IMG/VR virus record: IMGVR_UViG_3300047388_000258
Location: 1-47,869 of that record
DNA length: 47,869 nt
Source: a virus
Direction: 5' to 3' (one strand)
Shown here piece by piece: positions 2,328 through 19,637 of the stretch. The notes beneath the pieces were generated by a model that ran no database searches, had not been told where the DNA came from, and worked only from the letters and a program-made list of their open reading frames with translations. A program made the position numbers and the translations under genes. How positions within the stretch are numbered: the stretch's first letter is position 1; every line of letters starts with the position of its first letter.

Positions 2328-2534
2328 CTACGCCGCACCTGCTCCCTCTGGCCCGCGCGGCGCACCCTTGGGGTCCGGGTAGGCCAGGAGCCTCCACTCC
2401 TCCTGGAGGTTGCACAGCCGGCACACTGCATCCTCTTCGTTACGCTGCGCAGCTTCAGTCCTCATCCTCAGAACGCTGAGGGCTGAGTGAGCTGACATGA
2501 TCTCCGCGAGCACCGTCAGCGGGTCCCGGGCCAT
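2328..2534 (-). CDS. Small hypothetical protein with CxxC pair (68 aa)
   Basis: ATG at 2534 shares one base with the stop of the 17-residue leader peptide (TGATG), so translation is probably by termination-reinitiation. The product begins MARDPLTVLAEIMSAHSAL, looks helical in its N-terminal half, carries CRLCNLQEEWRLLAY in the middle and a Pro/Gly-rich tail. A single CxxC is not enough for a zinc finger unless it dimerises. No family is recognised. Confidence 0.6.
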   Translation of the reverse strand: MARDPLTVLAEIMSAHSALSVLRMRTEAAQRNEEDAVCRLCNLQEEWRLLAYPDPKGAPRGPEGAGAA

Positions 2535-2587
2535 CACTCGACCCACCAGGCTGGGTAGTGACGCGGGTAGATGTACTCGTGAGCCAT
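2534..2587 (-). CDS. 17-residue leader peptide MAHEYIYPRHYPAWWVE
   Basis: The ATG at 2587 sits exactly where repeat copy 2 places its start codon, with the same AGGA ribosome-binding site as the gene after copy 1. The frame ends after 17 codons in TGATG overlapping the next start. The peptide has three Tyr and a Trp-Trp pair. It may be a coupling or attenuation leader, or simply the truncated N-terminus of a duplicated gene (its first ten residues match those of the 1687-1842 gene at nine positions). Confidence 0.5.
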   Translation of the reverse strand: MAHEYIYPRHYPAWWVE

Positions 2588-2703
2588 GGTCTTCGTCCTG
2601 TCTTCCGATCCGGGTTGATACAGCAACTGTAGCACCGGTGGCCTGGTTGTGCCGGTGGGTTTATGTGACGTGAGTCACAGCCCTTCGGAGGCCTCGCGCG
2701 CGT
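2583..2703 (-). repeat. 121-bp perfect direct repeat, copy 2 (leftward promoter/leader module)
   Basis: This copy is identical to 2111-2231, offset by 472 bases. It contains the TACAG-N3-CTGTA palindrome at 2619-2631 and the TGTGA-N6-TCACA palindrome at 2664-2679, and it delivers transcription into the leader peptide and the 68-residue gene, ending at the 2261-2308 hairpin. Confidence 0.85.
2664..2679. promoter_or_regulatory. CRP/GlxR-type operator TGTGA-N6-TCACA (copy 2)
   Basis: Second exact copy of the 16-bp palindrome, in the same position relative to the downstream start codon as in copy 1. Preservation of both palindromes without a single change suggests either recent duplication or selection on the whole module. 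Confidence 0.55.
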
Positions 2704-2890
2704 ACGCGGGGGTGTCTGTGGAAGCTGGTCACGGCCGTGTGTCCGCGGAGGGGTGTGCTGGCAGGTTGAGGATGGTCGGCAGGTCGATTAATTCTGCCTT
2801 CGGCGAAGTCGTTGGGTGGGCTCGGGGACCGCAGATTTGGGATACTTCAATTTTCGATGTTAAAACTCCAAGATCAACAACTCCGAGACA
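2704..2890. other. Intergenic stretch upstream of the leftward promoters, no gene seen
   Basis: No convincing coding frame is present on either strand. The first half is GC-rich; from about 2780 it becomes clearly AT-rich compared with the rest of the window (for example TTCAATTTTCGATGTTAAAA). AT-richness next to divergent transcription could mark a promoter upstream element or a replication origin, but no iterons are visible. Confidence 0.4.
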
Positions 2891-2937
2891 TAAAAACGCG
2901 TAAGTCGGAACAACGAGCTCGTTATTCCGACTTACGC
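2891..2937 (-). terminator. Intrinsic terminator with near-perfect 40-nt palindrome and T5 tract
   Basis: Positions 2898-2937 form a palindrome with 13-bp outer arms (GCGTAAGTCGGAA and its complement), one C/A mismatch and a fully palindromic 12-base centre AACGAGCTCGTT. On the leftward strand it is followed by G and TTTTT (2896-2892). It lies 60 bases downstream of the stop of the 61-residue gene, so it ends the 3335-2998 leftward transcript. Confidence 0.85.
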
Positions 2938-2997
2938 CATATTAAAAAATCGGGCAGTTGGGTGCGTAAAGATCAACTATGGGTTGGGGGTCGAAAC

Positions 2998-3183
2998 CTA
3001 CGAGGACGACACCGCCAGCAACGTGACCGGCCCGCGTTGCGCCACAAGCTCGTCCCAGTTCATCGATCGCCACACCACACCACTGCGGGCCGGGAACCAA
3101 CCCCAGTCGTGCCGTTGCCACGCCAGGCCAAGACGATCGAGCACCACGGACCCCACTTCGGGCTCTGGAACGTCCGTTTTCAT
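2998..3183 (-). CDS. Small phage protein with GSVV...AWQR signature (61 aa)
   Basis: ATG at 3183 has an AGGGGA ribosome-binding site, and its first bases overlap the stop of the upstream gene (ATGA). The product reads like a small single-domain protein: PEPEVGSVVLDRLGLAWQR, then WGWFPARSGVVWRSMNWDEL and GPVTLLAV. Such proteins are frequent in actinophages and have no known function. It is a clear relative of the 9116-9295 product, which has PPVGSIVMTQDDHIAYQR and GWYSAS in the same order. Confidence 0.75.
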   Translation of the reverse strand: MKTDVPEPEVGSVVLDRLGLAWQRHDWGWFPARSGVVWRSMNWDELVAQRGPVTLLAVSSS

Positions 3184-11505: not shown

Positions 11506-11764
11506 GGGCATCGAAGATGCCCTTAACGACGCCATCGCGGACGTGATACTCATCCACGAGCAGGGTTTTGTCACGAAGTGGGTGTGTCTCATTGAGACTG
11601 TCGATTCCGAGGGTGAGCGGGGTGTATGGTCCTGCACTAGTGACAGCATGGCCCCGTGGGACATCTTGGGGTTGCTCCAGTACGCTACGGAAAAGGAAAA
11701 GCTGAACCTGGTGTTGAGTCGGACTCGTGAATTGGGCGAGGACGCTGATGGCGACGCAGGCTGA
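11468..11764 (+). CDS. Small protein between the terminase subunits (98 aa)
   Basis: GTG 11468 is used here; ATG 11477 is an equally possible start. The sequence (ALNDAIADVILIHEQGFVTKW, then GVWSCTSDSMAPWDILGLL) belongs to a small family common in actinophage operons, with no known activity. It overlaps the small terminase by 38 bases and the large terminase by 17, so it is translationally embedded in the packaging operon. Confidence 0.7.
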   Translation: MSWMQETPASTGEGIEDALNDAIADVILIHEQGFVTKWVCLIETVDSEGERGVWSCTSDSMAPWDILGLLQYATEKEKLNLVLSRTRELGEDADGDAG

Positions 11765-13763
11765 GCTGCTCCAGAAGCTTCAGGCGTTGTCCAAATACGC
11801 CTGGTACTGTCCGGACCCCAAATGTCCGGGAGACCCGCACGATGTATATCTGAATCGGCACGCCCGCCCAAACCAACGGCCCCCGCAGAGTGACTGGTGG
11901 GGGTGGTTTCTGCGGTCCGGCCGGGGGTTCGGCAAGACCAGAAGCGGGTCTGAGTTCGTCAAAGATAGGATGCTTACGATTCCGGGTCACCGCGTCGCTA
12001 TCATCGTCCCGGACTTCGGTGTCGGCCGAGACGTGTGCATCGAAGGCCGCTCCGGACTGCACGGACCGACCGCCGGGGAAGGCGTCATCCCCAAGAATAG
12101 AATAAAGCTGTGGAACAGGTCTCTCGGAGAACTGGTTCTCGATAATGGCTCAATAGCCAAGATTTTCGGTTGTGATAAGCGAAAAGACGCTGAAAAGCTC
12201 CGTGGATTCGAGTTCTCGACGGCATGGTTCGAAGAGTTGGGTTCCTGCGCCTACGGTGAGGTCGCGTGGGACATGCTGGAGTTCGGTTTGCGTGCCGACG
12301 ACCCCAAGGTGGTCATCACCAGCACACCCCGACCCACCCCGCTGATCAAGCGCCTGTGCGCGGACCCCGACATCCTCGTGGTCACGGGATCGACGTACGA
12401 CAACATCGACAACCTCGCCCCCAAGTTTGCCGCACGTATCAAACGCAGGTACGAAGGCACCACACTGGGTCGGCAAGAGCTGTACGGCGAGATCCTGGAC
12501 GGCTCGGACGGAGCCCTGTGGAGCTACGACATTATCCAGCGGGTGGCCGAGGCTCCGCACCTTGTGACGGTAGTGGTAGCCGTAGACCCGGCCGGCACGG
12601 CGCACGCCACATCCGACCTCACCGGAATCCTCGTTATGGGACTCGGTGAAGACGGCAAGATCTACGTTCTGGCCGACAAGTCGGACCGGTATTCACCTGA
12701 GCAGTGGCGCAAAGTCGTGGTGCAGGCGTACGAGGACTACAACGCCGATGCCGTGGTGGCCGAAGTCAACTTCGGCGCCGACATGGTTGCCGCCAACTTG
12801 CGGACCTCGGACATCGGTGTGCGGCCAGTGTTCGTTCCGGTCCGGGCCAGCCGGGGCAAGGCGATCCGCGCTACCCCCGTGGTCGGGCTGTACGAGCAGG
12901 GCCGCGGGCGGCATGTCGGAACGTTCCCGGAGTTGGAGGTCGAACTGACCACGTGGGTTCCACCCGGTCAGTTCGATGCGGACGGCGAGCCGATTCCGGA
13001 GTCGAAGTGGTCCCCGAACCGCCTGGACGCGCTGTGCCTAGTGGGTGACACACCTGTGCTTACCGCTGTGGGGGGGGTGGAGATCTCTCGTGTTCGTGTG
13101 GGGGACCGCGTGTGGACTCGCAACGGGTGGCGTCGGGTGGCCGCTGCTGGGATATCCCGCCGGTCAGCCCCCATCCTCGAAGTGGCGATAAGCGACGGAT
13201 CAAGTCTCCGGGGAACGGGTAACCACCCCGTTTGGGTGGTAGGGCGCGGTTGGGTTCGCATCGATGCACTGGTATGTGGCGATACACTGGACGCATGGAC
13301 CACGACGAAGCGGCGAAGTGGCATGGGTCTGAAGCGGGGCGAAGGTGGCACTCGGAGAAGTCCCTCCAACAGTGGGCTAACCCCACGACGTATGCCCGAA
13401 TATGCCAGGCGTCTCGATGCGGCACTGTGTTTGTGGCGTACAACGCGGACGCTGTTTACTGTTCTAGGGCGTGTGCCCGGTGGGCGGAGGACCAAGAGCA
13501 TCGCTACGAGGTCGAGGTACCGTGTCCCGTTTGTGACATCCCCTTTTGGCAGAGTAAGTACCGACCCAAGCCGGCCCACTGCTCCAGTTCGTGTGGTTGG
13601 GTTGCGCGACGCAGGCGTAGCTGATGTGTACGATCTCGCGGTGGCTGAGACGCACGAGTTTGTGGCCTCCGGTGTGGTGGTGCACAACTGTTGGGGCGCG
13701 ACCCACCTCGCGCTGAAGCCTCGGCGTCCCCGCAGCAGGATGCGATTCCCGATCCTCGGTTGA
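11748..13763 (+). CDS. terL: Terminase large subunit, interrupted by an intein (671 aa precursor)
   Basis: The packaging motor ATPase/nuclease. Walker A is at about residues 57-64 (SGRGFGKT), Walker B at about 156-163 (FSTAWFEE), the coupling motif at TSTPRP, and the RNase H-like nuclease begins at VAVDP (about 277-281), continuing with EVNFGAD. At residue 430 the conserved SPNRLDAL is interrupted by the intein; CWGATHLAL resumes at residue 648. After splicing the protein would be about 453 residues, the usual family size. The first block CPDPKCPGDP resembles a small Cys pair seen in actinophage TerL. The gene ends inside the -35 box of the next promoter. Confidence 0.9.
   Translation: MATQAELLQKLQALSKYAWYCPDPKCPGDPHDVYLNRHARPNQRPPQSDWWGWFLRSGRGFGKTRSGSEFVKDRMLTIPGHRVAIIVPDFGVGRDVCIEGRSGLHGPTAGEGVIPKNRIKLWNRSLGELVLDNGSIAKIFGCDKRKDAEKLRGFEFSTAWFEELGSCAYGEVAWDMLEFGLRADDPKVVITSTPRPTPLIKRLCADPDILVVTGSTYDNIDNLAPKFAARIKRRYEGTTLGRQELYGEILDGSDGALWSYDIIQRVAEAPHLVTVVVAVDPAGTAHATSDLTGILVMGLGEDGKIYVLADKSDRYSPEQWRKVVVQAYEDYNADAVVAEVNFGADMVAANLRTSDIGVRPVFVPVRASRGKAIRATPVVGLYEQGRGRHVGTFPELEVELTTWVPPGQFDADGEPIPESKWSPNRLDALCLVGDTPVLTAVGGVEISRVRVGDRVWTRNGWRRVAAAGISRRSAPILEVAISDGSSLRGTGNHPVWVVGRGWVRIDALVCGDTLDAWTTTKRRSGMGLKRGEGGTRRSPSNSGLTPRRMPEYARRLDAALCLWRTTRTLFTVLGRVPGGRRTKSIATRSRYRVPFVTSPFGRVSTDPSRPTAPVRVVGLRDAGVADVYDLAVAETHEFVASGVVVHNCWGATHLALKPRRPRSRMRFPILG
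13283..13288 (+). promoter_or_regulatory. -10 box TACACT six bases before the intein-nested ATG
   Basis: TACACT ends at 13288 and the nested ATG is at 13295, the same six-base spacing seen at six other leaderless starts in this window. No convincing -35 hexamer is at 16-18 bp (ATCGAT at 17 bp). Confidence 0.4.
13295..13624 (+). CDS. Zinc-finger protein nested in the intein in another frame, homing-endonuclease-associated type (109 aa)
   Basis: This frame is -1 relative to terminase. It begins MDHDEAAKWHGSEAGRRWHS, then carries two Cys4 fingers: RICQASRCGTVF with YCSRAC, and CPVCDIPF with HCSSSC, and ends in a basic tail ARRRRS. The WHGSEAGRxWH-plus-two-fingers layout resembles insertions that normally sit in frame between intein blocks B and F of Hint inteins in actinobacteria and phages. 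Here it is out of frame but intact, starting where block B ends and stopping just before block F. Either it is expressed separately from the leaderless start, or two indels displaced its frame. No HNH catalytic motif is seen. Confidence 0.6.
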   Translation: MDHDEAAKWHGSEAGRRWHSEKSLQQWANPTTYARICQASRCGTVFVAYNADAVYCSRACARWAEDQEHRYEVEVPCPVCDIPFWQSKYRPKPAHCSSSCGWVARRRRS

Positions 13764-13987: not shown

Positions 13988-15127
13988 GTGAAGGTACCGA
14001 TCCTAGACCTCGGGTTGACCCCGCTGGCAGACCAGTTCCCGGCGACGTCAGCCGAGGCGTACGCACAGGAGCTGTACCCGCTGGGCCTGACGGTAGACGA
14101 CCAGACGTGGACCGTCGAGTTGACTCACCACGTTCCGGACGAGCTGCTGTTCGGCGACGGTTACGCGTTCCTAACCGGGTCGTCCCCCGCGCTGAAGACG
14201 TACTTCGAGAACTACGCGGAGTGGGTGGCAGAGCGGTATGATCACCTGTTTCCCCAGGGTGTCTGTGAGATCGCCTGCAACGACGGCACGCTGTTGCAGC
14301 ATTTCAACCACACTCGGCATCTCGGTATCGACCCGGCCAAGCCTGCGATCACCGAGGCCAAGCGCAAGGGGCTCAGTACCGCCCACATGGCGTTTGACAA
14401 TGACACGGCACACGACATCGAAGAACCGTTCGGCGTGGTCATCGCCAACAACGTAGCCGCCCACGCAAGCAGCCTAGAAGACTTTCTGGCCGGCGTTGCG
14501 TATCTGATCCGCGACGGTGGCGTCGGGATCATCGAGTTCCAGTATGTGGGGGACCTGCTCAGTGACGCACTGTGGACGGTGGTGTACCACGAGCACCGGA
14601 GGTTCCTGTCCCTGACTAGCTTCATGGCCGCGTGCCCGGATGAGATGCACGTGGTTGACGTGCTGCGGACGCCGACCCAAGGCGGTTCGCTACGCGTCGT
14701 GGTGAACACCACGTCTGGCAACCCCTCCGGTGCGGTGCTGGACCTTCTGGAGAAAGAGGCGTGGCTGTGTCGGCTCGACACGTACACCTCGCTTCAAGGT
14801 CGCGTGGACTACCAGGTGGATCGGCTGTGGTCGGCACTGGAGAACCTCGGAACGATGACGCTGTACGGGGCACCGGCCAAGGCCACCACGCTGGTCCACT
14901 ACGCCGGATTGGTTAACATGATCGACTACGCGGAGGATCTGACACCCGGAAAGATCGACCGATACCTTCCTGGGACGGATATCCTGGTGGTAAAACCGGG
15001 CACACACAGCCGCCCGTCGGCGTATCTGGTCGCGATCGACAATTACTTGTCCAGCACCCTGAGCCGCGAGAGCACGTTTCTGGCCGACGGTGGTCGTTTC
15101 GTCTTGCCGAACGGAAAGGTGATCTGA
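13988..15127 (+). CDS. Sugar C-methyltransferase-like SAM-dependent enzyme (379 aa)
   Basis: GTG 13988. The N-terminus has LGLTPLADQFP, matching the PLAN/PLADxF start of nucleotide-sugar C-methyltransferases, though their usual zinc-binding Cys cluster is absent. The SAM-binding core is at about residues 88-110 (VCEIACNDGTLLQHF) with a downstream FGVVIANNVAAHASSLEDFL. The C-terminal domain shows the family's YGAPAKATTLVHYAGL and KIDRYLPGTDI motifs. Such enzymes (TylC3/NovU type) add a methyl branch to a 4-keto-6-deoxy sugar bound to a nucleotide. With the GDP-mannose dehydratase downstream it would make a branched deoxy sugar. Confidence 0.8.
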   Translation: MKVPILDLGLTPLADQFPATSAEAYAQELYPLGLTVDDQTWTVELTHHVPDELLFGDGYAFLTGSSPALKTYFENYAEWVAERYDHLFPQGVCEIACNDGTLLQHFNHTRHLGIDPAKPAITEAKRKGLSTAHMAFDNDTAHDIEEPFGVVIANNVAAHASSLEDFLAGVAYLIRDGGVGIIEFQYVGDLLSDALWTVVYHEHRRFLSLTSFMAACPDEMHVVDVLRTPTQGGSLRVVVNTTSGNPSGAVLDLLEKEAWLCRLDTYTSLQGRVDYQVDRLWSALENLGTMTLYGAPAKATTLVHYAGLVNMIDYAEDLTPGKIDRYLPGTDILVVKPGTHSRPSAYLVAIDNYLSSTLSRESTFLADGGRFVLPNGKVI

Positions 15128-15128
15128 C

Positions 15129-15338
15129 ATGAGCACACTGTTTGACGAAAAAGTAGGTGCGATAGCGCAACTCCTGGGGAGGTACGTAACCGTGTCCGAC
15201 TCCAAAACCGCCATGACCGGCCGATTCGTCAAGTTGGAGTACGTGATAACGCGGGGGATTGAAAGCGTCTTGGTCGTTCTCGATTATGGGTACGCCATGC
15301 CGGTGTCAGTGGGCCTGACTGTTAGAGAGGGTGACTAG
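15129..15338 (+). CDS. Small hypothetical protein (69 aa)
   Basis: ATG 15129 lies one base after the methyltransferase stop. The product begins MSTLFDEKVGAIAQLLGRYV and has a beta-rich C-terminal half (VKLEYVITRGIESVLVVLD). It might be a small barrel domain. No family is recognised. It is inside the sugar operon but need not be an enzyme. Confidence 0.6.
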   Translation: MSTLFDEKVGAIAQLLGRYVTVSDSKTAMTGRFVKLEYVITRGIESVLVVLDYGYAMPVSVGLTVREGD

Positions 15339-15339
15339 C

Positions 15340-16284
15340 GTGCGGGTGTTGGTCACGGGTGTCACAGGGCAAGATGGTTACTACCTCGCCGAGCTGCACG
15401 CCAAACGCGGCGACGAGGTCTTCGCGCTGGTGCGTGGTCAGCGGCCGGTTGTACTGCCCGAAGGCGTCACCGAGATCCGGGGCGACCTGCTCGATCAGAT
15501 GAGCCTAGTCAACGCCGTGAAGACCGCTCAGCCCGACACGGTCTACAACCTGGCCGCCGTGGCGTCCATAGCCGCGTCGTGGGGCTCGCCGGACCTGGTG
15601 GCCAACGTGACCGGCCTGGGCGTCTTGCGGCTGCTGGAGGCCGTCCGAACGGTGGCACCAGGAGCCTCGTTCGTCCATGCCTCGACATCGGACATGTTCG
15701 GTAACTGGGCCGGTGTGTCCACCGAGAACACACCGTTCGACCCCAAGACACCCTACGGCTGTGCCAAGCTGTACGCCCACCAGATGTGCCGTACCTACCG
15801 CGATGCGTACGGCATGCGGATCTCGACGGCAATTTTCTACCCGCACACCAGCCCCCGACAGGGTTCCGGGTTCATCATCCCCAAGGTGACCCGCGCGGCG
15901 GTCGCTATATCGCGAGGGTTCCAGACAGAGCTACGCCTCGGCAACATCGACGTGGTGCGCGACTGGGGCTGGTCGTACGACTACGTGCGTGCGTTCCCAA
16001 TCCTAGCTTCACGGGATGCCGCCGTCGGTGACTACATCCTGGCCACCGGTGTCAAGGCCAACCTCGCTAAGTTGTGTCAACTGGCATTCGACTCGGTCGG
16101 GTTGGACTGGGTGGACCACGTCAAGGTGGACGACTCGTTCTATCGGCCCACCGACGTTAAGTCCCAACAGGGTTGTCCATCCAAGGCTTGGACCGAGTTG
16201 GGTTGGAGGGCGCGCGTAGGACTGCCCGAGACTGTTCGTCGCATGGTGGAGCACGCCAAGACGGAGCTGGGGTGGCCGACGTGA
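15340..16284 (+). CDS. GDP-mannose 4,6-dehydratase-like short-chain dehydratase (314 aa)
   Basis: GTG 15340 is chosen because GAGAGGG lies 8 bases upstream; GTG 15331 is an alternative. The Rossmann NAD(P)-binding loop is GVTGQDGYYLAEL (residues 7 onward), followed by GDLLDQMSL, and the active site is STSDMFG (about 115-121) with Tyr139 and Lys143 in YGCAKLYAH. The GQDG loop and SDMFG are hallmarks of GDP-mannose 4,6-dehydratase, which makes GDP-4-keto-6-deoxymannose. The product would feed the C-methyltransferase and the glycosyltransferases nearby. Confidence 0.85.
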   Translation: MRVLVTGVTGQDGYYLAELHAKRGDEVFALVRGQRPVVLPEGVTEIRGDLLDQMSLVNAVKTAQPDTVYNLAAVASIAASWGSPDLVANVTGLGVLRLLEAVRTVAPGASFVHASTSDMFGNWAGVSTENTPFDPKTPYGCAKLYAHQMCRTYRDAYGMRISTAIFYPHTSPRQGSGFIIPKVTRAAVAISRGFQTELRLGNIDVVRDWGWSYDYVRAFPILASRDAAVGDYILATGVKANLAKLCQLAFDSVGLDWVDHVKVDDSFYRPTDVKSQQGCPSKAWTELGWRARVGLPETVRRMVEHAKTELGWPT

Positions 16285-17208: not shown

Positions 17209-17727
17209 TTGGGAGCTGTTCGTGAGGTTCCTGTTGCTCCCAGTTACACAGCGCTAGTCGACGCTGTCGACTACGATCGAGTAGTAACAGCGGGGCCGTG
17301 GCGCGCACAGGCGTCAGGCAGTGTAGACAACCCTATAAACTATGCTAAAACCCATACCACCCGCAACGGGGTTGATACCAGCTTGTACATGCACAACTTG
17401 GTGTCAGGCGGCGGGTTGACGGACCATAAAAACAGCGACGGTCTAGACAACAGACGAGACAACCTTCGGGCTGCGACACACCAGCAGAACATGGGTAATC
17501 AACGCCCACGATTGGGTCGATCGTCGCGGTATAAGGGCGTATCGTGGTGCAAGGCGGTTGGTAAGTGGCGTGCGTATATTCGGGTGCATGGGGAACAGCG
17601 GCACCTTGGGTGTTTTGATGCGGAGTTGGACGCCGCATTGGCTTATGATCTGGCCGCGCAGAAGCCGGACCCGGACGGATTTGGCGAGTTCGCACGCCCC
17701 AACTTGGTGACGTGGGGATCGATATGA
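17209..17727 (+). CDS. HNH homing endonuclease with AP2 DNA-binding domain (172 aa)
   Basis: The N-terminal half has the HNH core: LYMHNLVSGGGLTDHKNSDG (about residues 59-78) then LDNRRDNLRAATHQQNMGNQ. The C-terminal half is an AP2-type three-stranded DNA-binding domain, SSRYKGVSWCKAVGKWRAYI with HLGCFDAELDAALAYDLAA. These are free-standing homing endonucleases that nick phage DNA to spread. The start is uncertain: TTG 17209 is the first usable codon, but the frame is open upstream through the degenerate portal start. Its stop overlaps the portal ATG (ATGA). Confidence 0.85.
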   Translation: MGAVREVPVAPSYTALVDAVDYDRVVTAGPWRAQASGSVDNPINYAKTHTTRNGVDTSLYMHNLVSGGGLTDHKNSDGLDNRRDNLRAATHQQNMGNQRPRLGRSSRYKGVSWCKAVGKWRAYIRVHGEQRHLGCFDAELDAALAYDLAAQKPDPDGFGEFARPNLVTWGSI

Positions 17728-17763
17728 GCCTAAGCGATCTTGTCCTCCGGGCAGCTGGGCTGG
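17724..17763 (+). repeat. Functional copy of the portal start, right flank of the HNH insertion
   Basis: Partner of the 17161-17200 repeat. The two copies flank the HNH gene and differ at 10 of 40 positions, including the start codon, so the downstream copy has taken over as the portal start. Confidence 0.75.
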
Positions 17764-19637
17764 AAACACGCGCCCGGCCGTCGAGGCTTGTCTCCCAATC
17801 GGCCCCTCCCGGCGCCCTAGCGTCACCACTGTATCACGCTGCGCATCAACCCATATGGCCTGAGAACGACCCGCTAGCGGGTGTTTCGGCCGCGTACCAG
17901 CGCAACCTGTACGTGTACCGGGCCATCAACACGATCGCCAACAACATGGTGCAGATTCCGATCCGCGCCGGCGCACTGCCCAATGGTGCATTCCGAACCA
18001 CGGCGCCGCTCGCCCAGCTTCTCGGGCCGCCCCCCGGTTCGCCCAACCCGCTGTGGTCGCCGGCCATGCTGTTGCGCTACGCCATCATCCAGTATTTGGT
18101 GACCGGCAAGTTCGCCTGGGCCATCGAGCGCCGCCCCGGTTCGGACCAGATCGTCGGTTTGTGGCCGATACCGGTGCAGTACCTCAAGCCGGTAATGCCC
18201 GAGCCGGACTCTACCAAGCCCGAGTATTTCGAATCTTTCGACCTGTACACGCGGGGTTCGATCAACTACGTATCGTACAAGCCCCAGGACATTGTCTACT
18301 GCTGGCGCCCGTCGTTGTCGGATCCGCGGCAGCCGGAGTCTCCGCTGAACGTGGCGAAGTCCGAGATCAACGTGATGTGGTTGCTCGGCCAGTTCGACCA
18401 GGCATTTCTTCAGAACGGCGGTGTCCCGTCCCACCTCATCGTGACGAGCCCGTTCGTGGACGACGCCGAGCGCGGCGCGTTCCGCAACCAGTTCAACCGC
18501 AAATTCGGCGGCGTCAGTAACGCCGGCAAGCCGATGTTCGCCGAGCGCGAGTTGGACCTGGGCGACGGTGGGCCTGGGGGTGGTTCGGTCGGAGACCCCG
18601 TTTCGGTCACCAAGATCGGCCAATCGCAGCGGGATTCAGAAATGTCCAACCTGCGGTCCGCCAAGATCGGGGACCTGTCGGTCGGACTGGGCGTTCCGCT
18701 GTCTGTGTTGGGCGACACAAGGGACGCTAAGTTCGAGAACATCGAAGGCGACCGGAAGATCTTCTATCGCGAGACCATCCGGCCCATGCTCCGCGAGTTC
18801 GAGGACATGCTCAACATCCACCTAGCACCTCTGCTGGGAAACGACGTTTGTTGGTTCGACATCACCAAGGTGTACGAGCTGAAGCCGATCCCGCTGTTTT
18901 CCGAGCGGTGGGGGCCGACCTTGGTCGAGTCGGGCATCATCACCCGTGACGAGTACCGCGACGACCTGGGCCTGCCGCCACTGACCGCCGCGCAGAGAGA
19001 CGAGATCGACGCGGCGGGAAACCCGCTGGTCGAAGACATCCCGGCGCCGGGTACCGAGCTGCCGGCCAAGCCGAAGCTGGTCCCGTTGCCCGGCATGGGT
19101 GCACTGAACACCGGGCTGAAACCGAAGGCATCGCCGGCTGGCGTGGTCCCGCCCGGGTACAAGATTGGGCCTAAGTCGCCGCAGGGTGCTCCGCCGAAGG
19201 CCGCGCTGGCGCAGTCTCAGCCGATGATAGCTGTCGCACACAGGGTGAGCCACACCAAGGGTGTCCGAGACGGCTTGATCGACATCTTGGTCATCGACTT
19301 GGCGCACGCGGTGGAGCAGCGAGCCAACTCCCGCCGCAACCGATCGCTGGTCGACGTGCCGTACTGGACCAACCGGTTCCGCACCGTGCTGTCTACCGTG
19401 GTGGACGATCCGCGCACGTTGGGCCGGTGCACCCACACCGCCATCGAGCTGGTGGTTCGGGCGGTTGCGGACGGTAAAATGCTGGACGGCGACGTGACGC
19501 AACGCATCGTCGAAATCTACGACGGATATGATAGCAGTGTGCCGCTGGCCGGTCTGGGCCAGATCCTCGGACAGATGCGGGCAGGAACCATGGACCAGGA
19601 CAGGGCACTCAATATCATTAAGGGCGGTGCGGCGTGA
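17724..19637 (+). CDS. Portal protein (637 aa)
   Basis: The dodecameric portal ring is the DNA entry and exit gate of the head. The start ATG 17724 overlaps the HNH stop; the longer upstream start is inside the HNH gene. The HK97-type portal pattern is clear: AYQRNLYVYRAINTIANNMV (about 53-72), PNPLWSPAMLLRYAIIQYLV, then VYCWRPSLSDPRQPESPLNV, RSAKIGDLSVGLGVPLSVLG and REFEDMLNIHLAPLLG. The C-terminal 150 residues beyond the core include a helical segment (DGLIDILVIDLAHAVEQRAN) longer than the minimal family length. Its stop overlaps the protease GTG. Confidence 0.9.
   Translation: MSLSDLVLRAAGLETRARPSRLVSQSAPPGALASPLYHAAHQPIWPENDPLAGVSAAYQRNLYVYRAINTIANNMVQIPIRAGALPNGAFRTTAPLAQLLGPPPGSPNPLWSPAMLLRYAIIQYLVTGKFAWAIERRPGSDQIVGLWPIPVQYLKPVMPEPDSTKPEYFESFDLYTRGSINYVSYKPQDIVYCWRPSLSDPRQPESPLNVAKSEINVMWLLGQFDQAFLQNGGVPSHLIVTSPFVDDAERGAFRNQFNRKFGGVSNAGKPMFAERELDLGDGGPGGGSVGDPVSVTKIGQSQRDSEMSNLRSAKIGDLSVGLGVPLSVLGDTRDAKFENIEGDRKIFYRETIRPMLREFEDMLNIHLAPLLGNDVCWFDITKVYELKPIPLFSERWGPTLVESGIITRDEYRDDLGLPPLTAAQRDEIDAAGNPLVEDIPAPGTELPAKPKLVPLPGMGALNTGLKPKASPAGVVPPGYKIGPKSPQGAPPKAALAQSQPMIAVAHRVSHTKGVRDGLIDILVIDLAHAVEQRANSRRNRSLVDVPYWTNRFRTVLSTVVDDPRTLGRCTHTAIELVVRAVADGKMLDGDVTQRIVEIYDGYDSSVPLAGLGQILGQMRAGTMDQDRALNIIKGGAA

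Follow-up and report, generated by a model that had tools for sequence, protein, structure and literature searches.

Textbook inteins are mobile through an endonuclease domain that is fused to them in frame. Fractured genes, reportedly described by Dassa et al. in 2009, are another arrangement, in which an intein is split and a homing gene lies between its two halves. Where an endonuclease domain is present in an intein, it occupies a highly conserved insertion site (PMC6801210). Out-of-frame HNH genes are known from insertions in actinophage DNA methylases, namely the ShiLan domain and Pacc40 gp60 (Arsenault, Gosselin, Gogarten 2025, PMC11855218), and one has been noted in phage Applejack (PMC12613952). 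Inteins of the phage large terminase subunit, TerL, have been described in the ATPase domain of mycobacteriophage terminases (Kelley et al. 2016, PMC5050341). Our literature search found no published intein with a homing gene in another frame; a preprint on actinobacteriophage inteins (Gosselin et al., 10.1101/2025.01.02.630785) lay outside that search, and its title, which refers to non-canonical architecture, makes a prior description possible.

Here we analyse a terL locus in a stretch of 47,869 bases, the whole of an IMG/VR virus record and hereafter called the window. We consider it very likely that this locus holds an intein which, by its anatomy, is able to splice, which lies in the nuclease domain of TerL and which carries, out of frame, what remains of a homing endonuclease gene.

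Anatomy of the terminase intein and of the nested gene

Table 1. Features of the interrupted terL gene, with positions in the window.
Feature	Positions	Strand	Evidence or remark
terL, large terminase subunit, Terminase_6 type, intein-interrupted	11727-13763	+	single unbroken ORF
TerL N-extein	11727-13034	+	
Intein, 218 aa, Cys1 to terminal Asn, frame 0	13035-13688	+	Intein_splicing and intein_Cterm matches; predicted Hint fold (AlphaFold, Foldseek); empty site in L169
Block A, CLVGDTPVLT	13035-13064	+	sequence; Cys1 invariant in the intein alignment
Block B, GTGNHPVWV, with T..H pair	13212-13238	+	sequence; in the intein alignment T61 does not vary and H64 hardly does
TACACT, putative leaderless-promoter -10 element	13283-13288	+	separated from the ATG at 13295 by the six bases GGACGC
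Nested gene, frame -1, 109 aa, ATG to TAG, two-finger protein	13295-13624	+	phrog_15471; likeness to L090; mean AlphaFold2 pLDDT 95.1
Frame-0 linker over the nested gene, about intein residues 90-181	13302-13577	+	Arg/Ser/Thr-rich; AlphaFold pLDDT ~50, predicted disordered
WHGSEAGR motif, nested protein	13319-13342	+	nearly all of the 129 homologues have its W, H, S, E and G
Finger 1, Cys4 (C37, C42, C56, C60), nested protein	13403-13474	+	alignments
Finger 2, Cys4 (C77, C80, C96, C100), nested protein	13523-13594	+	alignments
Blocks F and G, DVYDLAVAETHEFVASGVVVHN/C	13623-13691	+	sequence and intein_Cterm; directly after the nested stop
TerL C-extein	13689-13763	+	

The features of the locus are collected in Table 1. 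The TerL ORF matches the Pfam families Terminase_6N (3.3e-14) and Terminase_6C (8.1e-12). Its intein runs from Cys1 (TGC, 13035-13037) to a last Asn (AAC, 13686-13688) and is followed by a +1 Cys (TGT, 13689-13691). It matches the Pfam family Intein_splicing (E=7.8e-9) and TIGR01443, intein_Cterm (E=1.4e-6). All the elements by which inteins are recognised are present: blocks A, B, F (VYDLAVAETHEFVA) and G (VVVHN/C, with His-Asn ahead of the +1 Cys), a nucleophile at position 1, a terminal Asn and one of C, S or T at +1. A Hint fold is predicted for residues 1-88 and 182-219 of the frame-0 protein (pLDDT mostly 95-98), and in Foldseek comparisons with solved inteins the model matched the Ssp DnaB mini-intein (E=6.9e-9) and gp41-1 (2.0e-8). 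The insert lies in a conserved nuclease motif of the terminase. An intein-less homologue, L169, reads SPNRLDAM-VWGATELVL across the empty site, with Val at the position of the window's +1 Cys, and L170 and L181 provide further empty sites. From these intein-less homologues it follows that the insertion in the window is precise. Judged by its anatomy, the intein should be able to splice.

The protein encoded in frame -1 matches phrog_15471, a family of HNH endonucleases (E=7e-9), and it is the C-terminal part of these endonucleases that is matched. A tblastn search with it reached the HNH nuclease of Pseudomonas phage PAE1 (E=2e-5). The WHxSE motif and the Cys4 fingers which define the C-terminal part of the HNH homing endonuclease (PF13392, phrog_15471) are both present, with all eight cysteines retained. 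Finger 1 opens with CX4C (CQASRC), where the relatives have CX2C. In the AlphaFold2 model two helices are followed by two units, each of paired strands and a helix, which hold the cysteines. A Pfam search of the 109 residues gave no match to the HNH catalytic motif. A sequence search of solved structures with the nested protein found no HNH or homing relative, and a fold search returned only weak zinc-knuckle matches such as YacG. The earlier note on this DNA had read here, from the letters alone, an intein with intact splicing blocks in frame 0, a middle that is Arg/Ser/Thr noise in that frame, a 109-residue frame -1 protein with two Cys4 fingers, and a TACACT box six bases before its ATG; each of these readings held, the intein to its exact coordinates.

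Could the frame -1 ORF have arisen by chance? This was rejected: shuffles of the codons that leave the frame-0 protein unchanged predict 4.3 stops in frame -1, with P(0)=0.004, and to this is added the homology of the nested protein.

Other genes nearby are worth recording. A free-standing endonuclease gene with AP2 and HNH_3 domains (17209-17727) lies directly before the portal gene (17712-19637) and gives the packaging region a second gene of homing type. The interval from terL to the portal gene holds genes for a C-methyltransferase (13988-15127, Methyltransf_14) and a GDP-mannose 4,6-dehydratase (15331-16284), a pair of sugar-nucleotide genes (13988-16284) within the structural operon.

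Recurrence and constraint in two frames among relatives

A DNA similarity search of the locus against deposited phages gave no match, and viral contigs searched with the 109-aa protein alone yielded none; alignment-based searches succeeded. From the alignment-based scan of IMG/VR the best 80 of 282 relatives were used. Among these 80, 67 are nested, always with the same -1 offset and nearly all with intein motifs on both sides in the sequence available. Three deposited phages found by tblastn have a full nested gene within the TerL ORF, again in frame -1. Genome contigs scanned with a finger profile gave nothing, and a full-length profile gave nine loci. The best-80 set, a second finger-based scan, the nine genome contigs and the phage records together form a sample of 129 distinct homologues. 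Of these, 100 are nested in frame -1 of a longer open ORF, 29 are not nested and none is in frame. Both intein motifs are present in 89 of the 100 nested loci (the window and 88 further ones), and the window shares with them a frame -1 homing gene, an open host ORF and intein motifs on both sides. Four of the other 11 (L103, L111, L147 and L006) are without a long host ORF and are probably not inteins; the remainder are mostly cut by a contig end or missed by the pattern.

Nearly all homologues encode a complete endonuclease with HNH domain and zinc fingers. All six full-length proteins that were tested match HNH_3 above the curated cut-off; five of the six are nested, and the closest relative (L090) is included. 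Most of ten sampled host ORFs match both terminase and intein families. The annotations of the cultured phages checked that have a continuous TerL (TJE1, Highwayman, LS06) call the terminase alone. Tetrasphaera phage TJE1 (HQ225832; L247, 1035-3293), for example, has a complete HNH and finger gene in frame -1 of its TerL intein and is annotated with terL only. One further TerL ORF (L151, 2-3511) apparently contains two inteins, with Intein_splicing at residues 163-514 and Hint_2 from residue 812. On a tree of nested and free-standing genes there are at least six switches between the two states on the starred branches, with many weak forks, and this tree is compatible both with a single origin followed by escapes and with repeated nesting.

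Constraint is visible in both frames across the relatives. When the synonymous codons of the nested genes were shuffled, 239.5 host-frame stops were expected in the 89 nested genes and none was observed, against 68 observed and 72.7 expected in the 29 non-nested homologues; the nested class is defined partly by its open host frame, and the contrast far exceeds what such selection among 129 would give. For the window alone the signal is weak: with the nested protein fixed, 0.43 frame-0 stops are expected and P(0)=0.57, so that frame-0 openness is significant only family-wide. About 1839 stops would be expected in the remaining third frame; only one offset is therefore practicable, and this probably explains why it is always -1.

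Substitutions tell a similar story. Over 18 pairs of relatives, some of which share members so that the counts are not all independent, differences within the overlap number 805, 659 and 1203 at the three nested codon positions (nested third positions being host second positions), and outside the overlap 1463, 1178 and 2851 at the three host codon positions. It follows that within the overlap the nested protein is the better conserved and that the host frame drifts in everything but its openness. In host-frame alignments the linker contains a conserved-looking motif, ITxTxTxxTT, which appears to be a frame shadow of the HNH motif (in L005, GIMFTIKMKTLGI in the host frame vs GYHVHHKDENTW in the nested frame).

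These observations bear on how the two frames came to be arranged as they are. Paired indels or assembly errors in this phage could have shifted a zinc-finger or endonuclease domain, once in frame, to frame -1, as the earlier note had allowed in naming paired indels or a sequencing error, and a noisy frame-0 linker over a clean frame -1 protein is what they would leave. However, the offset is common to all nested relatives, which come from many unrelated phages, no homologue among the 129 is in frame and host-frame openness is selected family-wide, all of which makes such a displacement extremely improbable. Nor do the relatives have the degraded frame -1 protein that the note would have counted against itself: nearly all are complete, and codon-position constraint acts on the nested frame. 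A non-splicing intein, that is an inert passenger in TerL with a frame 0 open by chance, would agree with the shuffle of the window taken alone. It is nevertheless very unlikely to be correct, as the splicing residues are all intact, a Hint fold is confidently predicted, the insert sits in a conserved terminase motif and the 89 nested genes are free of host-frame stops against 239.5 expected. Of the note's first alternative, an overprinted and separately expressed homing gene in an intein, the architecture is thus supported by about 100 distinct loci and by constraint in two frames; the separate expression is a probable reading of the sequence.

The missing HNH half, and proposed expression and homing

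The closest relative is 50% identical to the window over the fingers and has a complete gene of 222 aa with HNH domain and fingers. In a base-by-base alignment the two start codons are homologous (GATACACTGGACGCATG in the window, GATAGACTGGAGGCGTG in L090). The intein is 218 aa long in the window vs 327 aa in L090, and therefore about 330 nt coding for the HNH domain are missing from the window. We infer that the window gene is a deletion derivative which lost this HNH half and kept the start, the fingers and both frames, the frames because a loss of about 330 nt is a multiple of three; since the relative used for comparison is only 50% identical, the ends of the deletion are not exact. Of the nested relatives that have both intein motifs, no other was seen to lack an HNH-like motif. 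The ORF is as clean as the earlier note had said, yet the gene is not intact: WHGSEAGR, which the note took for a normal start lying in frame between blocks B and F, is in the relatives preceded by an N-terminal HNH domain and is carried in the same -1 frame. The window would represent, as far as one sequence can indicate, an early stage of endonuclease loss.

How the nested gene is expressed can be approached from its upstream sequences. A start codon lies ahead of the HNH core in 86 of the 89 nested genes, at a median of 4 codons after the upstream in-frame stop. Shine-Dalgarno sequences are strong in some loci and only modestly above controls over the family (p=0.02). Among GC-rich loci, TANNNT is found exactly 6 nt ahead of the first start in 8 of 20, with 1.0 expected from host amino acids and codon usage and none of 200,000 simulations as high; the spacing test was devised after the first examples, one clade accounts for four of the eight, and the window, whose TACACT is among the eight, was scored from the ATG at 13295 and not from an upstream TTG. 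The other loci, which are not GC-rich, have no excess of TANNNT at this distance. This suggests leaderless expression in the GC-rich loci, and in this phage too the nested gene is probably expressed separately.

Access to the nested frame by -1 programmed frameshifting from TerL would suit the offset, and slippery heptamers are somewhat enriched near the nested N-terminus (0.84% vs 0.47% of positions). But they are scattered over only 17 loci, to which the window does not belong, and the start codons that follow so soon after the upstream stop, like the strong Shine-Dalgarno sequences of some loci, point to a start of its own; frameshifting is accordingly a remote prospect. There is more to be said for a finger-only protein that is not a decaying remnant but a retained functional DNA-binding protein, a terL regulator or a means of site protection, although we still hold this to be unlikely. 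The ORF is intact, the cysteines and WHGSEAGR are kept and the fold is confidently predicted, and so are the start and the TANNNT box. On the other hand, the HNH-less form is unique in the sample, finger 1 has CX4C and a recent deletion accounts for the same facts. Nested third positions are still the most variable between window and L090 (34, 38 and 59 differences), which favours retention. Departures from conserved finger residues are slightly more numerous in the window (13/38 vs 8/38 in L090), which does not, but the latter counts are small and we read them neither as relaxation nor as retention. The more specific form of the idea, that the finger protein is still made from the leaderless promoter within the intein and acts in trans at the terL site, as regulator or as protection from related homing endonucleases, is a little more doubtful again; if true, a homing gene would have turned into an overprinted regulator within a splicing intein.

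Signs of mobility come from relatives. The inteins of L095 and L097 are identical (957 nt, 100%) and their upstream exteins 87.9% identical; for L044 and L059 the values are 98.9% and 84.1%, and more distant pairs go in the same direction. Near-identical inteins in TerLs that are only 84-88% alike are as homing would predict, and bear only indirectly on cleavage of the intein-less allele. Insertion points cluster around the nuclease Asp codon (H/CxDA, H/CDA, D/CLRY, DA/CVW and, in the window, DAL/CWG), and homing on a conserved target would give adjacent insertion points of this kind. In the exteins of L010-L246 the intein positions range from two residues before the Asp to three after it.

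We favour a deletion-derived remnant in an intein of a probably mobile family. The form that is ancestral and widespread has, in frame -1 between blocks B and F, a gene for an HNH_3 endonuclease whose zinc fingers are C-terminal; this is the usual place of the in-frame endonuclease domain in inteins. Frame 0 over the nested gene is stop-free, a probably disordered linker, so that the precursor could still splice to TerL. The endonuclease would be made separately from its own start, by means of a Shine-Dalgarno sequence in some lineages and of a leaderless -10-type promoter in GC-rich ones. Its presumed target would be intein-less terL near the catalytic Asp codon, where a cut would lead to the intein and its gene being copied in together. 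In the window, the internal loss of about 330 nt would have removed the HNH half with both frames preserved, and left an intact intein whose separate inner ORF codes for nothing but the DNA-binding fingers. Such a state would stand early in the endonuclease-loss phase of the homing cycle.

Comparison with known systems

These data point to a large group of inteins in phage terminases whose endonuclease is a separate, -1 overprinted gene that annotation misses. Mobility and splicing would then evolve with separate expression and shared nucleotides, and the endonuclease could be lost by a single deletion that leaves splicing untouched, as in the window. Overprinting occurs here naturally, in a form open to experiment, and for each of the two frames a function can be predicted. 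The linkers of other phage inteins merit an alternate-frame search, and the TACACT box may be part of a leaderless promoter that lies within a protein-splicing element.

With canonical inteins such as CDC21-1 (PMC6801210) the locus shares the Hint domain, blocks A, B, F and G and a mobility function at the conserved position. There the endonuclease is in frame, whereas here it is in another frame and a separate protein, and frame 0 forms the predicted disordered linker. The mycobacteriophage inteins are likewise in a phage TerL, but here the insertion is at the Asp motif of the nuclease domain and the homing gene is out of frame.

Fractured genes also have a separate homing gene at the place where the intein is divided. 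Here, in contrast, the host ORF is continuous, TerL being a single ORF, and splicing would be in cis. In Vibrio phage 1.238.A (MG592603; L249, 1800-3400) the TerL intein is in two ORFs and an HNH gene (2408-3118) overlaps both halves; this layout looks like the fractured-gene counterpart of the nested arrangement, with a distantly related HNH gene.

The free-standing HNH and finger endonucleases encoded near terL, PAE1 Orf3 and that of Acinetobacter phage BP10 (phrog_15471), belong to the same protein family, and the PAE1 fingers are 37.5% identical to those of the window. Those genes lie outside any intein and have the HNH domain, whereas the window gene lies inside an intein and is without it.

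The nearest published case we found is the out-of-frame HNH gene of ShiLan. ShiLan and Pacc40 resemble our locus in that the insertion encodes HNH and zinc fingers in a frame other than that of the host, which stays open, and in a disjunct distribution, and leaderless translation initiation has been proposed for them (PMC11855218). They differ in their host, a methylase, and in that no intein splicing motifs or intein-like structure were found there (PMC11855218). The window, by contrast, has an intein in TerL with its splicing motifs present and its HNH domain lost, and so does not belong with the non-intein insertions; what sets it apart from them is the intein as carrier.
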